DNA from: Armatimonadota bacterium
GTDB lineage: Bacteria; Armatimonadota; Fimbriimonadia; Fimbriimonadales; Fimbriimonadaceae
Length of the DNA: 64,000 nt
Assembly (NCBI GenBank): GCA_022563855.1
Contig: JADFMN010000004.1
Location: 124,001-188,000 of the forward strand
Direction: 5' to 3'
Within the stretch, counting starts at the first letter, position 1. The number at the start of each line of letters is the position of its first letter. Below the pieces are notes generated by a model. It did not search any database. It was not told the DNA's origin and saw nothing but the letters and a program-made list of their open reading frames with translations. Shown here piece by piece: positions 11,820 to 19,261 of the stretch. A program made the translations under genes and the position numbers.

Positions 11820-12694
11820 GCAAGAGTCGAGCCTTCACACTGATCGAGATGCTCGTCGTCATAGCCATCGTGGCGATACTGGCGGCGGTGCTTTTCCCCG
11901 TCTTCAGCCGCGCCCGCGACCAGGCGAAGGCGACGGTCTGCCTCAGCAACTTCAAGCAGGTCAGCACCAGCGTGCTGCTGTACCAGGTCGATTACGACGA
12001 CCGCTACGTTCCTGCGAAGTACTCGACCGACGCAAACGCCGATTCGAGCACAGACCGCACCTGGGTACAGCTGATACTTCCGTACGGCAAGAGCTTTGCC
12101 CTCTTCAAGTGTCCGGGCGACTTCTCTGTTCGACCGACGAATGAGAGCCTCTTCAACGCTGACGCCCTTCCAAACGATTCGTACGCTCGGTATTACCGCG
12201 CTTCGATGCGATCGAACCTCGGCTACAACTACCTGTATTTTGCTCCGTTGTTCACAGCTCGCTCGAGAATTCCCTATTCCGTTACTCGATCGACATGGGA
12301 GGTCCAAGACCCGTCCGGCATGCTCGTTTTCGGTGATTCAGTTCATTCGATCGATTCTTCCGGCAAGCCGGTTGGCGGCGGCAGCTACCTGATCGTTCCG
12401 CCGTGCAGGTACGCCAACGCCGAAAACGGCACCGTCGATACGTTCCTGTTGGACTCCATTCCGAATACAGACTTGTACACGGGGAGCCTGGATTGGGGTC
12501 CGATCGGCAACGGCGTCGCCGCAGTGGCCAGCGGCGGTCTTTGGCCGTGGCACAGCGACCGGTTGACGACCGTATATGCGGACGGCCACGCCAGGCGCAT
12601 CACCCTGGACCAAGCGGCGGAAGGATGCGAGGCGTTGCCGATGTGGGCCGGACTCATCTCCGACCGATCGAAGTATCGCTGGGACTTCGACTAG
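11816..12694 (+). CDS. Prepilin-like protein with H-X9-DG C-terminal motif
   Basis: A 292-residue type II pseudopilin-like protein. It begins SRAFTLIEMLVVIAIVAILAAVLFPVF, the prepilin N-methylation/cleavage segment with Glu at +5. The C-terminal region ends PWHSDRLTTVYADGHARR, in which H is followed by exactly nine residues and DG. This is the H-X9-DG motif of prepilin-type proteins abundant in Planctomycetes and Armatimonadota. The start is TTG in a 4-bp TTGA overlap with the GNAT gene. It is presumably processed by a prepilin peptidase and exposed outside the inner membrane. The gene is followed by a symmetrical hairpin shared with the convergent thioredoxin gene. Confidence 0.9.
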   Translation: MSKSRAFTLIEMLVVIAIVAILAAVLFPVFSRARDQAKATVCLSNFKQVSTSVLLYQVDYDDRYVPAKYSTDANADSSTDRTWVQLILPYGKSFALFKCPGDFSVRPTNESLFNADALPNDSYARYYRASMRSNLGYNYLYFAPLFTARSRIPYSVTRSTWEVQDPSGMLVFGDSVHSIDSSGKPVGGGSYLIVPPCRYANAENGTVDTFLLDSIPNTDLYTGSLDWGPIGNGVAAVASGGLWPWHSDRLTTVYADGHARRITLDQAAEGCEALPMWAGLISDRSKYRWDFD

Positions 12695-12718: not shown

Positions 12719-12758
12719 ACGACAGGCGAAACACCAGAGGCGGCGCTTCGCCTGTCGT
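12719..12758. terminator. Bidirectional hairpin between convergent genes
   Basis: A 12-bp perfect inverted repeat, ACGACAGGCGAA and its complement, around a 16-nt loop. It lies midway between the pseudopilin stop (12694, plus) and the thioredoxin stop (12772, minus). AAAAA precedes it on the plus strand, which gives a T-run for transcripts reading from the minus strand. Confidence 0.7.
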
Positions 12759-12771
12759 CGGTCGTATGGGA

Positions 12772-14094
12772 CTACTTGCCTTCTACAAGTGCCTTGACCT
12801 TCTCGCGGAACGGTATGAAGATCGTCGGCGTGTAGCCGATGTGGATGAACGCCACGTTGCCCTCGCGGTCTAGCACCACCCAGTGCGGAATTCCGCCGAC
12901 GCCATAGGCGTCATTGTTCGACTGGCCGCCAAAGACCATCGACCAAGGTTCGCCCTTGTCGGCGCGGAAGTTCGCCATTTCAGCGAACTCTTCCTCTTCG
13001 GAGATCTCTCTCTTCGCGCCTACGTATCCGTAGTACTGGGTCACGGCGACCATTTCGAGTCCTTTGTCGTGGAAGTCAGCGTACAGCTGCTTCAGGTCCG
13101 GAACGGACCTCTGACAGAACCCTCACCAGTGCGCCGTGAAGTCGATGATGACGACCTTGCCCTTCCAGGCATCCAGGCTCTTGAAGTCGCCGTACTGCCG
13201 GTCGAAGTCCAGCGCGGTCGCCGGCGAGCCGATCATCTCGGTCTGCATGATCGCAGAATTGGCGCGGCGCACAGAGGCGTTCGACGGATCACGGTCCTTG
13301 ACGAACTCCTTCAAGACAGAAAGAGCCTCGTCCTTGCGTCCCGCATCTTCCAACAGCCCTGACTTTTTGTTCGCGGCGGAATAGATCAGGCCGACTCTAC
13401 GGTTCTTGGCGCTACTGACCAGCATTGCGGTGATCTGCTTGTCCGTCATCTCGCTGCCGTCGCGGTTCCTGGTGCCGCGCGCTTTGAAAGAGTCGAACGA
13501 GCGCTTCGCGTACTCCTCTGGATCTTCGAACTTGGCCAGGGCCATAGCGTCGTCAATCGCCTTGAGAGCGGCCTCGATGCCCATTTTCTCGGCGATGGTA
13601 TCGGCGTAAAACCGCACGACGCTCCCCAAATGCCCTTGGCTCTCAATTGTCGTCGCTGGGGCGTACGTCGCCAGCATCTCGACCAGCATGTCCGCGTCAC
13701 CAAGCGAATTGCAGGCCCTCATCGCCATGCCCTGGGCAATCGACTTGTCCTCTCGGCTCGGATTACTCTCTAGGAACCTCAAGCAGAGGTCGCAGATCTC
13801 CTGGTGCATGCCGGCAAAGGAGAACACCGACGCCCACGACAGGGCTAGATCGAGATCGACGTTCGCCGGGTCGACCCCTTTGGCCGCCTTGAGCGCCATA
13901 GCCTTAGTCTCAGCGTTTATGGCGGCCATATCGGCCCGCTGTCCAGCAGAACGAGCCTCATCCATGCGTTGCGTCCTGTGGGCGACGATCGCATCCATGA
14001 TGTCCTTGGGATTCTTCTCTTGCGCAAAGGACACCGCGGTGCTGACGACCAGCGTCAGGCAAGCGACAGTGCGGAAGAAGTATTTCACGGTCAT
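12772..14094 (-). CDS. TlpA-like thioredoxin, candidate selenoprotein (in-frame TGA at UxxC)
   Basis: A 440-residue exported protein if the in-frame TGA at 13125-13123 is read through. ATG 14094 has GAGGTGA upstream and starts a signal peptide (MTVKYFFRTVACLTLVVSTA...FAQ). Residues 30-290 are helical and TPR-like. A thioredoxin domain follows: VVIIDFTAHW, then TGA, then GFCQRSVPDLKQLYADF, GLEMVAVTQYYGY, and GGIPHWVVLDREGNV with the cis-proline loop. TGA is residue 324, exactly where the first cysteine of CxxC belongs, giving U-G-F-C. The frame continues without a break for 116 residues that match the fold. A hairpin 12 nt after the TGA fits a bacterial SECIS. A nonsense mutation or sequencing error is the alternative. 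Confidence 0.8.
13094..13110 (-). promoter_or_regulatory. Candidate bacterial SECIS hairpin
   Basis: On the minus strand AGGTCC-GTTCC-GGACCT forms a perfect 6-bp stem with a 5-nt loop whose first base is G. The stem starts 12 nt and the loop 18 nt after the in-frame TGA at 13125-13123. Bacterial SECIS elements lie directly downstream of the UGA, with an apical loop roughly 16-37 nt away and a G in the first loop positions. CTG/CAG can add a lower stem below an internal loop. The hairpin lies inside the thioredoxin coding region, as expected for bacteria. Confidence 0.6.
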
Positions 14095-14242
14095 ATTCAC
14101 CTCGTGCCCGGACGTTACCCTTTCGTAGCGCTTGCCGACGTTGGACGAGAGCGCACGGGCGGAGGCCGATTGTCGGAGATACCGATGCGATCCCGGCTAA
14201 ACTGGTGCCCCTACAGCTTCAACGGAGAACCAACAACACATC

Positions 14243-15193
14243 ATGAAAGTCAGCATCATCGGAGGCGGCGGGCGCGTAGGATCGGACGCGGCGTACGCCC
14301 TACAACTCGGCGGCATCGTCACCCACATCGCCCTCGTCGACGTCAACCAGGACATGGCTGCGGGCGAGGCGCTCGACCTGCGCCACGGCGCGTCGTTCAC
14401 GGCCAACCAGACGTTCACCAGCGGCGGCTACGAGGAGTGCGAGGGCAGCGACTGCGTCGTCATCACAGCAGGGCTTCGCAGAAAGCCCGACGAGAGCCGG
14501 CTCGACCTCATCAACCGCAACGTCGGCCTATTCACGGGCATCCTCGAATCATTGAAGGAAGTCAAGCTCGCCGACGTCGCGACGATCCTCGTGGTCAGCA
14601 ACCCGGTCGACATCCTCACGCACCTCACGGTCAAGAGCGGCCTGCTCCCGCAGAGCCAGATCATGGGCCTCGGAACGGTGCTCGACACGGCGCGGTTCCG
14701 CAGCCTGATCGCCGACCACTTCAAGGTCGGAGCGAAGGACGTCAACGCGGTCATCCTCGGCGAGCACGGCGACTCGATGGTGCCGATCTGGTCCGGCGCG
14801 ACGATCAACGGCGTGGCGATCTCCTCGATCCCCGGCTGGAGCGACTCCTCCGCCGACGAGCTTTTCGAGACGACCAAGAAGTCCGGCGCGACAGTCATCA
14901 GGCAGAAGGGCGGCGCGGGCCGCGCGGTCGGCATCGCGATCAAAGAGGTCGTCGAAGGCATCGCGCTCGACGACGGCCGCCTGCTCCCCGTGAGCAGCGC
15001 GCAGACCGGCACGATGGGCATCAGCGACATCTCGCTCTCGCTGCCGACCGTGGTGGGCCGAGCGGGCGTGGTCGCGGTCTGGGAGCCGAAGGTCAGCGAC
15101 GCCGAAAGAGAAGCCCTCATGAAGAGCGCCGCCGCGCTCAAGGAGACGTTCGCCATCGTCGAAGAGTCGACCTTTGGGAGTGCGCGGGCTTGA
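14243..15193 (+). CDS. mdh: Malate dehydrogenase (LDH/MDH family)
   Basis: A 316-residue NAD-dependent dehydrogenase of the tetrameric LDH-like MDH group. The glycine-rich GGGGRVG (7-13) binds NAD, ASP33 in LVDVN selects NAD over NADP, and GEHGDSMVP carries the catalytic histidine 175. The specificity loop reads AGLRRKPDESR: an arginine (R80) stands where lactate dehydrogenases have glutamine, which favours malate/oxaloacetate. It interconverts malate and oxaloacetate in the cytoplasm. It is transcribed divergently from the thioredoxin gene and stands alone. Confidence 0.9.
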   Translation: MKVSIIGGGGRVGSDAAYALQLGGIVTHIALVDVNQDMAAGEALDLRHGASFTANQTFTSGGYEECEGSDCVVITAGLRRKPDESRLDLINRNVGLFTGILESLKEVKLADVATILVVSNPVDILTHLTVKSGLLPQSQIMGLGTVLDTARFRSLIADHFKVGAKDVNAVILGEHGDSMVPIWSGATINGVAISSIPGWSDSSADELFETTKKSGATVIRQKGGAGRAVGIAIKEVVEGIALDDGRLLPVSSAQTGTMGISDISLSLPTVVGRAGVVAVWEPKVSDAEREALMKSAAALKETFAIVEESTFGSARA

Positions 15194-15418: not shown

Positions 15419-17311
15419 TCAAGGCACGATCGTCCACACTGTCTGATCGAAGCTGATCAGCCACGGGTATGAGAGCACGATGCCGGCTTCCTTGTAGCTG
15501 ATCTTGGCTCTCATCTGCTTCGTTCCTGCTTCGACGAACCGCGCCGGGTCTGTCGTGATGCTCACCTCCACGATCGAGTCCACCGTCGTCGCGATCATGA
15601 AGTCGACCTGCTCGTACGAGTTCGTGTCGTAGTTCCACAGCTCGATCCACTGTCCGATGTTGTTGATCTCCGCGTGGGCCTCCAAACGGAATCGAAGCTC
15701 GGTCGGCGTCTCAGTCGGAGAAGTGCCAGTGACGATGAGCTGCACCTGTCGCTCAGATTGGTTCAGCGTGATCCCTGGCAGCACCGTCATCCAGCTGTCG
15801 TCGCTCGCGAGCAGGTCGCTCAGCCCGCCGCCGGTCAGAATCCCGCGGAACAGCGAGAAACTGTCGGGTAAGACCTCGACCGTCTGAGAGTACTTGATCG
15901 TCGCGTAGTCGTAGTTCGTGCCTGAGCCCCACGACCAACCGGTTACATACACGTTGCCCGGGCCGTCCACAGCAACGGCCTCGGCACGGTCATAACCGAT
16001 GCCTGAACCGTCGTAGCGCATCGACCAAAGCCGGTTGCCGTCCGTGTCGTACTTCAACGTCAAGTAATCGAGGCTCGTACCGAAGCCACTCGAGAAGCCG
16101 GTCACGTACATGTTGCCTGAGCTATCCAGAGCAAGCGCAGCGGCACCGTCCGAACCGTTGGCTGGGCCGTTGTAGCGCCTTTCCCAGACAAGGTTGCCGT
16201 TCGTGTCGTATTTAAGGGTCGCGACGTCGGTGCGCGTGCCGGAGCCCACCGACCAGCCGGTCACATATACGTTGCCAGCTTCGTCAACAGCAAGCGCATT
16301 GGATTGATCGACATCGTTGGCCGGACCGTTGTAGCGCAGTGCCCAAACCAGGTTGCCGTTCGCGTTATACTTCACCGTCGCATAGTCGATGTCTGTGCCG
16401 ACGCCCCAAGAAGATCCGGTCACATAGACGCTTCCGGCCTCGTCAACAGCAAGTGCGGTAGGGACATCGATGTAGTTGGCCGGGCCGTCGTACCGCCGTA
16501 CCCAAAGCTGGTTTCCGTTTGTGTCGTATTTGAGGGTCGCGTAGTCGAAGTTCGTGGCGCCCCCCCATGATTGGCCGGTTACATAGACGTTGCCGACGTC
16601 GTCGACAGCAATTGCAGTAGCGATATCGCCATTATCGTTGGACGGGCCGTTGTACCGTCGTACCCAGAGGAGGTTGCCATTCGTGTCGTATTTCAGCGTC
16701 GCGTAGTCGACACCCGTGCCACCGCCCGAAGAGCTACCGGTCACGTACACGTTGCCAGCGCTGTCCACGGCAAGCGCGTATGCTTGGTCGCCACTTCGGT
16801 CTGCGCGGCTGTAGCGGCTTAGCCAGAGCAGGTTGCCGTCCGTGTCGTACTTCAATGTCGCGTATAGCTTGTACCCGTTGGAGGCGGTTGAGGCTCCGGT
16901 CACATACACGTTGCCTGCGTCGTCCACGGCAAGCGCACGGGCGATATCGAGTCTGTTGCCTGGGCCGCTGTACCGCCTCTCCCAGAGCTCGTTGCCCACC
17001 GTGTCGTACTTCAACGTCGCGTAGTCGTTGCCAGTGCCGGAGCCGTCCGATTCGCCGGTCACATACACGTTGCCTGCCCTGTCCACAGCAAGCGCTCTGG
17101 CGACATCCCGATCGTTACCCGGGCCGTTGTAGCGACGGACCCACTCCTCCTGCACTTGGCCGAAAGTCGCGCTCGTCACCGCGAGTGCGACGGCGGTGCA
17201 CGCGATCCTCACAAATGATTTCCGAGCGCGTATTGCCGACCGTCGCCCGGCTTCATACTGCGCCCTCGTCGCTTCTCGCCATCTGTCTGTTGCGTTTTGG
17301 CCGTCAAACAT
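15419..17311 (-). CDS. SBBP-repeat secreted protein, paralog 1
   Basis: A 630-residue protein with eight SBBP-type repeats of about 47 residues (core ALAVD-x-AGNVYVTG...DYATLKYDT-GN-LW-RRYNGP). They start just after an export signal (VRIACTAVALAVTSATFGQ) and run to about residue 455; a beta-propeller is likely. A C-terminal module of about 130 residues (LPDSFSLFRGILTGGGLSDLLASDDSW to the end) is shared with the paralog at 17441. ATG 17311 has AAGGAAG 9 nt upstream but gives a long, arginine-rich n-region; a GTG near the FVRIA text is a possible later start. The function is unknown, perhaps a surface or adhesive protein. It lies 129 bp after its paralog in the same direction. Confidence 0.8.
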   Translation of the reverse strand: MFDGQNATDRWREATRAQYEAGRRSAIRARKSFVRIACTAVALAVTSATFGQVQEEWVRRYNGPGNDRDVARALAVDRAGNVYVTGESDGSGTGNDYATLKYDTVGNELWERRYSGPGNRLDIARALAVDDAGNVYVTGASTASNGYKLYATLKYDTDGNLLWLSRYSRADRSGDQAYALAVDSAGNVYVTGSSSGGGTGVDYATLKYDTNGNLLWVRRYNGPSNDNGDIATAIAVDDVGNVYVTGQSWGGATNFDYATLKYDTNGNQLWVRRYDGPANYIDVPTALAVDEAGSVYVTGSSWGVGTDIDYATVKYNANGNLVWALRYNGPANDVDQSNALAVDEAGNVYVTGWSVGSGTRTDVATLKYDTNGNLVWERRYNGPANGSDGAAALALDSSGNMYVTGFSSGFGTSLDYLTLKYDTDGNRLWSMRYDGSGIGYDRAEAVAVDGPGNVYVTGWSWGSGTNYDYATIKYSQTVEVLPDSFSLFRGILTGGGLSDLLASDDSWMTVLPGITLNQSERQVQLIVTGTSPTETPTELRFRLEAHAEINNIGQWIELWNYDTNSYEQVDFMIATTVDSIVEVSITTDPARFVEAGTKQMRAKISYKEAGIVLSYPWLISFDQTVWTIVP

Positions 17312-17440
17312 GATTACGGCTTCCTTACAGCAGCTCAAGGCCGCAGATACATCATGACACAGTGCTTCGTCAGAGGATGCCAGTAATTTCACCGGCACGA
17401 GCGAGGCGAATTGCTAGCCACGCGATTGCCGGTTGGTCGT

Positions 17441-19261
17441 CTACGGGACGATAGCCCACACCGTCTGGTCGAAGCTGATCAGCCACGGGAATGAGAGTAC
17501 AATCCCGGCTTCTTTGTAGCTGATCTTCGCCTTCATCTCCTTCGTGCCCGCCTGTACGAACCGGCCCGGATCGACCGTGATGCTCACCTCGACTATCGAG
17601 TCAGTCGTCGTCGCGATCATGAAGTCGACCTCTTCCCACGAACTCGTGTCGTAGTTCCACAGCTCTATCCACTGCCCGATGTTGTTGATCTCGGCGTGGG
17701 CCTCCACTCTGATCCGAAGCTCGCTCGGCGTTTCAGTCGGAGCTGTACCGACGACGATGAGCTGCACCTGGCGCTCCGCTTGGTTCAGCGTGATCCCCGG
17801 CAGCACAGTCATCCAGCTGTCGTCGCTGGCGAGCAGGTCGCTCAGCCCGCCGCCGGTCAACATCCCGCGGAACACGGAGAAGCTGTCCGGCAAGATCGTC
17901 TGCGTCTGGCTGTATTTTATCGTCGCGTAGTCCGTGCCCGTGCCGGAGCCCGTCGATTCGCCAGTTACATACACGTTGCCGGCACTGTCCAAAGCAAGCG
18001 CATGCGCCCTGTCAGAACCGTTGCCCGGACCGTTGTAGCGCATTTCCCAAAGCACGTTTCCGCTCGGGTCGTACTTGAGCGTCACGTAGTCGTCGTCAAT
18101 TCCAGGGACCGGCGAATAGCCGTTCACATACACACAGGATTCGGTGTCGATTTCAATGTCAGCGCCTTGATAGGTAACGAAGCCCGGGCCGTCGGACCGC
18201 CTATCCCAGAGTTGATTGCCGTTCGAGTCGTACTTCACGGTCGCGTAGTCCCAGCCTTTGTCGGGTGCCCACGTCAGGCCGATCACATAGACGTTGCCTG
18301 CGTTGTCGACAGCAAGTGCGGAGGCACGATCCGCATAGTCGGCCCTGTTGTAGCGGCTTGCCCAAAGCAGGTTTCCGTCCGGGTCGTACTTCAGCGTCGC
18401 GTAGTCTAAATCCGTACCCGAGCCAGTCGATTCGCCGGTAACATACACGTTGCCCGCGCTGTCCACTGCAATGTGAGAGGCGATATCCCATGCTCCTCCC
18501 GAGCCGGCGTAGCGCCTAGCCCAGAGCAGGTTTCCGTCCGTGTCGTACTTCAACGTTGCGTAGTCCCGTCCAGGGTAGGAGCCCGTGCCCCCGGTCACGT
18601 ACACGTTGCCTGCGCTGTCCAGTGCAAGCGCAAAGGCGGCATCCGAACCGCTGCCGCCGCCATTGTAGCGACTTTCCCAGAGCAGGATGCCGTCCGTGTC
18701 GTACTTCAACGTTGCGTAGTCGTGCCCCGTGCCGGAGCCCACCGAGTTGCCAGTCACATACACGTTGCCTTCGCTGTCCACTGCAATCGCCCGGGCTTGA
18801 TCGGTACTGCTTCCCGGGCCGTTATAGCGTCTTGTCCAAAGCAAATTGCCGTCCGAGTCGTACTTCAACGTCGCGTAGTCTCTGAGCGTGCTATGTGAGC
18901 CGTACGAATCTCCGGTCACATACACGTTGCCCGCGCTGTCCACGGCAAGCGCATTGGCGAAATCGGGTCTGTTGCTTGCGCCGCCGTATGAGCCGTCGTA
19001 GCGCCGTTCCCAGAGTTGATTGCCGTCCGAGTCGTACTTCAGCGTCGCGTAGTCCAAGTGCGTGCCGGAGCCCACCGAGCTGCCGGTCACATAGACGTTG
19101 CCGGCGCTGTCAACTGCAATCACAGAAGCAGTATCCGAACCGTTGGCGGCGCCGTTGTATCGCGCGACCCACTCCTCCTGCACTTGGCCGTAAGCCGCGC
19201 TCGTCACGCCGAAAACCGTGGCGATGCAGAATAACTTTCTTGCGACAGTGACAGTACGCAC
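17441..19261 (-). CDS. SBBP-repeat secreted protein, paralog 2
   Basis: A 606-residue paralog of the downstream gene with the same plan: signal peptide (MRTVTVARKLFCIATVFGVTS), the motif QVQEEWVARYNG, eight SBBP repeats and the same C-terminal module beginning LPDSFSVFRGMLTGG. The seventh repeat has diverged (ADIEIDTESCVYVNG). The GTG start at 19261 has GGAGGG 5 nt upstream. The repeats are alike at DNA level too, so the 15.9-19.1 kb stretch is prone to recombination and misassembly. The pair most simply reflects a gene duplication. Confidence 0.82.
   Translation of the reverse strand: MRTVTVARKLFCIATVFGVTSAAYGQVQEEWVARYNGAANGSDTASVIAVDSAGNVYVTGSSVGSGTHLDYATLKYDSDGNQLWERRYDGSYGGASNRPDFANALAVDSAGNVYVTGDSYGSHSTLRDYATLKYDSDGNLLWTRRYNGPGSSTDQARAIAVDSEGNVYVTGNSVGSGTGHDYATLKYDTDGILLWESRYNGGGSGSDAAFALALDSAGNVYVTGGTGSYPGRDYATLKYDTDGNLLWARRYAGSGGAWDIASHIAVDSAGNVYVTGESTGSGTDLDYATLKYDPDGNLLWASRYNRADYADRASALAVDNAGNVYVIGLTWAPDKGWDYATVKYDSNGNQLWDRRSDGPGFVTYQGADIEIDTESCVYVNGYSPVPGIDDDYVTLKYDPSGNVLWEMRYNGPGNGSDRAHALALDSAGNVYVTGESTGSGTGTDYATIKYSQTQTILPDSFSVFRGMLTGGGLSDLLASDDSWMTVLPGITLNQAERQVQLIVVGTAPTETPSELRIRVEAHAEINNIGQWIELWNYDTSSWEEVDFMIATTTDSIVEVSITVDPGRFVQAGTKEMKAKISYKEAGIVLSFPWLISFDQTVWAIVP

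Follow-up and report, generated by a model that had tools for sequence, protein, structure and literature searches.

Locus and predicted protein

The window, by which we mean the whole stretch of 64,000 nucleotides that was analysed, comes from a Fimbriimonadales-type Armatimonadota genome (G000, 3.18 Mb, 96% complete) and carries on its minus strand a gene that we predict to encode a selenoprotein. Its features, with the basis of each, are as follows.

14098-14103, minus: Shine-Dalgarno-like GAGGTG preceding the ATG at 14094 (sequence)
14094-12772, minus: predicted selenoprotein gene, 440 codons with the TGA read through, from ATG 14094 to TAG 12774-12772
14020-14094, minus: probable signal peptide, residues 1-25 (basic start, hydrophobic core)
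13234-14013, minus: N-terminal all-helical domain, a TPR-like solenoid, about residues 28-287 (structure model, TPR matches)
13125-13123, minus: in-frame TGA, codon 324, candidate selenocysteine (Sec) in HW-U-GFC (Cys/TGA alignment column)
13094-13110, minus: candidate SECIS hairpin AGGUCCG-UUC-CGGACCU (comparison, compensatory change, synonymous sites)
12775-13122, minus: post-TGA part, 116 codons, with Cys 327, thioredoxin fold and cis-Pro 403 (pN/pS, pLDDT, GC3)
12719-12758, minus: intrinsic terminator 3' of the TAG, 18 pairs plus a T tail (hairpin and T tail)

As the initial annotation had stated, the TGA is the only interrupting codon: translation of 14094-12772 yields 440 residues with a single TGA, which is preceded by VVIIDFTAHW and followed by GFCQRSVPDLKQLYADF, with GGIPHW further downstream, all as had been claimed. 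GC3 is 0.78 after the TGA vs 0.79 upstream of it. The terminator is strong, lies directly 3' of the TAG, and none of it is placed after the TGA, so the transcript appears built to take in the post-TGA part. The neighbours are a divergent gene at 14243 and a convergent gene ending at 12694, and the selenoprotein gene therefore stands alone. When we inspected by eye the gene order around the homologues in two relatives, G055 and G150, nothing was shared. Elsewhere on the minus strand of the window, at 15419-17398 and 17441-19261, are two adjacent large proteins that are alike in their repeated build, with propeller-like AVDSAGNVYVTG repeats and C-terminal regions very similar to each other.

Residues 1-25, the probable signal peptide, are modelled with low confidence and imply that the product is probably exported. 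In the helical domain, both the TPR_14 match and the PDB matches to TPR folds are weak. The mean pLDDT of the full-length model is 90.5, and the post-TGA part, at about 87-97, is modelled about equally confidently. The best Pfam match of the read-through protein is Redoxin (56 bits), and the C-terminal domain is of the Redoxin/AhpC-TSA type, with ResA and DsbE-like proteins as the nearest solved structures. The TGA falls just ahead of the first redoxin helix, in the place of the leading Cys of the CxxC motif, and downstream of it Cys327 and the GIP loop with the cis-proline are both retained. We place the protein among the TlpA/ResA-like redoxins because it has a thioredoxin fold, a UxxC where the first redoxin helix begins, and the cis-Pro. 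This agrees with the TlpA-like assignment made before, and also with the earlier view that the 116 downstream codons keep the thioredoxin fold. None of the NCBIfam models attains its cut-off against the read-through protein.

Homologues, downstream selection and the hairpin

We aligned 38 homologues, all from the phylum; the named relatives are Armatimonadota, mostly Fimbriimonadales-type MAGs. At the column of codon 324, all 38 aligned members have either Cys or TGA. The TGA copies are in five genomes (G000, G055, G150, which is Armatimonadetes bacterium ATM1, G155, and G120, which is Chthonomonadales MAG_18), and all remaining members have Cys at exactly this column, as expected if the TGA occupies the position of the nucleophilic Cys. 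Identity to the window protein is 55% for G055 and 47% for G150. All five genomes with a TGA copy have selA, although in G120 it is split across two contig ends. Even counting well-supported branches alone, the unrooted tree requires at least three Cys/Sec changes, in either direction.

The residue before the second Cys is Phe in all five Sec copies (U[GT]FC; L021, L028, L057, L061, L065) and Pro in 32 of the 34 Cys copies (C[GP]PC). In the clade of G111, G119 and G120, Phe is present in Cys copies too (CIFC, CGFC), so in that clade Phe may have come before Sec. TlpA-like genes with HWUGPC (L066, G048:C1:696269) and FWUGPC (L067, G013:C178:4476) were seen in two further genomes of the family, where a simple hairpin by the TGA is weak or absent. 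We also noted that a contig labelled Methanoregulaceae archaeon (JADZEW010000008.1) holds an Armatimonadota-type member of this redoxin family (L092) that is apparently the G056 gene itself, which suggests that the record is mislabelled.

Compared with G055, the part of the gene after the TGA has 82% amino-acid identity, a pN/pS of 0.27 and zero frameshifts, and the TGA is retained, while the part before it has 46% identity and a pN/pS of 0.57. This pattern indicates purifying selection on the post-TGA codons; a decayed tail would give the opposite pattern. Disabling mutations downstream, which had been named as the sign of a gene in decay, are thus absent from the comparison with the closest homologue. 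Synonymous divergence collapses in the 20 codons after the TGA, where pS is 0.081 vs G055 (0.50 further downstream, 0.62 upstream) and 0.087 vs G150 (0.57 further downstream, 0.70 upstream). Synonymous sites have nearly saturated in G155 and G120, the two most distant TGA homologues, and the evidence for selection downstream therefore comes mainly from G055 and G150.

A 6-bp stem, AGGUCC-GUUCC-GGACCU, with its loop 18 nt past the TGA, had been pointed out in the initial annotation and is present; the same hairpin may alternatively close as 7 bp with a 3-nt loop. Alone it is weak evidence. The hairpin satisfies the published bacterial SECIS rule (PMC13188914), but so do about 9% of the window's ordinary coding positions, and we therefore rejected the rule as sufficient evidence on its own; the folding z of the 60-nt stretch holding the hairpin is -1.2. 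Because the rule is met this often by chance, the weight rests on conservation, and once homologues are compared the hairpin becomes significant. All five TGA genes have it, as a 7-bp stem with the loop 16-19 nt after the TGA. Hairpin scores are 11-13 in the five TGA homologues and 2-10 in the 34 Cys homologues (rank test p = 1.6e-4, uncorrected for relatedness), and none of the 34 Cys genes equals a TGA gene at that place. When the same peptide was recoded synonymously, 140 of 5000 shuffles attained the score of the window. The hairpin is identical in the window and G055, and that of G150 differs from the window's by one compensatory pair change, G-C to U-A, in which both halves alter the protein (Arg to Met and Leu to Met). 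A single compensatory pair across three sequences is modest by itself (164 of 500 shuffles), but it carries more weight because synonymous change collapses across the same 20 codons.

Selenocysteine machinery and other in-frame TGA genes

A search for selA, selB, selD and tRNA-Sec had been proposed as a check, and the genome has all four. One SelA (513 bits), SelB (345 bits) and SelD (359 bits) were found, each above its curated cut-off, along with a tRNA-Sec with anticodon TCA (74 bits), on which ARAGORN agrees and which is on the same contig as the window but outside it; within the window, the Rfam scan and ARAGORN gave no matches. Those weaker matches to the tRNA-Sec model that we examined are tRNA-Ser and tRNA-Leu. 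The selD gene itself has an in-frame TGA (KCAG-U-ASK), and its product (L017, C4:338766-339668) is a predicted selenoprotein in its own right.

Of the 18 AhpC/TSA-fold genes in the genome, seven have one in-frame TGA, and as judged from their motifs (UGFC in the gene studied here, UGPC twice, UPPC, UGC, USFC and a peroxiredoxin-type PGU) these TGAs are at the expected catalytic positions. The six redoxin or peroxiredoxin genes other than the one studied are L073 (C1:413358, PGU-T), L074 (C4:55835, UPPC), L075 (C10:107339, UGPC), L080 (C4:283102, USFC), L082 (C2:345778, UGC) and L083 (C2:207325, UGPC). At least seven other genes of this genome thus seem to use TGA as selenocysteine, a count that covers redoxin-fold genes and SelD. 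Among these other genes, the UPPC gene, one UGPC gene and selD pass the published SECIS rule, and in the rest the hairpin is shorter or weaker. A single in-frame TGA occurs in 18 of 73 redoxin-fold genes across five genomes with selA vs 0 of 59 across four genomes without it (Fisher 1.1e-5), where four of the five selA-positive genomes had been picked for holding TGA copies of the studied gene; minus those four entries, p is 1e-4.

Proposed decoding of UGA324 and relation to known selenoproteins

If the TGA were a true stop, the gene would be a pseudogene, or its product would be cut short after 323 residues, as a helical protein lacking redox activity. TGA terminates 15 of the 43 long ORFs of the window and so is an ordinary stop elsewhere, and the ATG at 13053, with AAAGGA upstream, could begin a 93-residue fragment. 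However, such a fragment would be without the active site, and this reading is very unlikely given the purifying selection downstream, the lack of frameshifts, the maintenance of the TGA across five lineages, and the terminator placed after the TAG. The same terminating TGAs argue against a genome-wide reassignment of TGA to another residue, for example Trp or Gly; in-frame TGAs in several genes would fit reassignment, but they are at catalytic Cys columns rather than at Trp or Gly, and the UCA-anticodon tRNA that we found is of the tRNA-Sec type, so we consider this exceedingly improbable.

A sequencing or assembly error, with TGC or TGT misread as TGA, has a minimal probability, as four other assemblies have TGA at this codon and seven other genes in the genome have an in-frame TGA, mostly at the catalytic Cys. 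In other organisms short of selenium, Sec-UGA can take Cys, which is a precedent for reading the UGA without selenium, by tRNA-Cys or tRNA-Trp for instance, to give a Cys protein; as the genome has all of the Sec machinery and the hairpin is conserved, such a route would be superfluous, and there is little chance that it applies here.

Sec insertion at UGA324, giving a full-length selenoprotein, is in our judgement very nearly certain on the sequence evidence: the machinery, the Cys/TGA column, the downstream selection and the conserved hairpin all support what the initial annotation had proposed. SelB and tRNA-Sec would decode UGA324 as selenocysteine, directed by the hairpin that starts about a dozen bases past it. 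In the presumably exported product, Sec324 in the TlpA/ResA-like redoxin domain would be the attacking nucleophile and Cys327 the resolving residue, and disulfides outside the cytoplasm would be reduced or exchanged. The TPR-like domain probably binds a partner or a substrate.

UxxC thioredoxin-like selenoproteins are already catalogued, TlpA-like and Redoxin families among them (PMC1088965, PMC9312934, PMC13188914), as had been stated in the earlier reading, and Cys-to-Sec exchange is a described trend among thiol redox proteins (PMC1794560). The thiol-disulfide isomerase-like selenoprotein from the Sargasso Sea (cd02966/PF13905, UxxC; PMC1088965, listed in PMC13188914 and PMC9312934) likewise has, by description, a TlpA-like thioredoxin fold and UxxC, whereas the present family is marked by its AHWUGFC motif and by a TPR-like domain at the N-terminus; a review listing the Sargasso Sea family does not mention Armatimonadota. 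The Redoxin family selenoprotein (PF08534, UxxC; PMC13188914), also compared by description, has the Redoxin Pfam and UxxC in common with it. The UGC-containing TlpA family (NF041054, WAxxUGC) also resembles TlpA and ResA and has Sec in place of the first Cys, but its motif differs from the UxxC of our protein, which scores 22 against its cut-off of 300. ResA/TlpA/DsbE oxidoreductases have a like fold (TM 0.8-0.9, by target length, to ResA and DsbE-like structures), CxxC position and cis-Pro, and our protein differs from them by Sec at the first Cys and by the extra helical domain; against the ResA model (NF002854, cut-off 170) it scores 47.4 bits.

The mechanism is thus already known; what surprises is the lineage in which it appears and how many such genes there are. 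In the open-access literature that we searched, there was no report of selenoproteins in Armatimonadota, Armatimonadetes or Fimbriimonas, and our results add a redoxin-rich selenoproteome for this phylum. They are also a solid correction of annotation, since automatic annotation would make a truncated protein and a separate fragment out of this one enzyme. Chances seem to us evenly balanced that this Armatimonadota lineage swapped Cys and Sec repeatedly in its redoxins and that the Sec/Cys pairs trace the birth of SECIS elements within coding sequence. These Sec/Cys pairs, in which the hairpin imposes amino-acid replacements, are a good natural test of SECIS origin.
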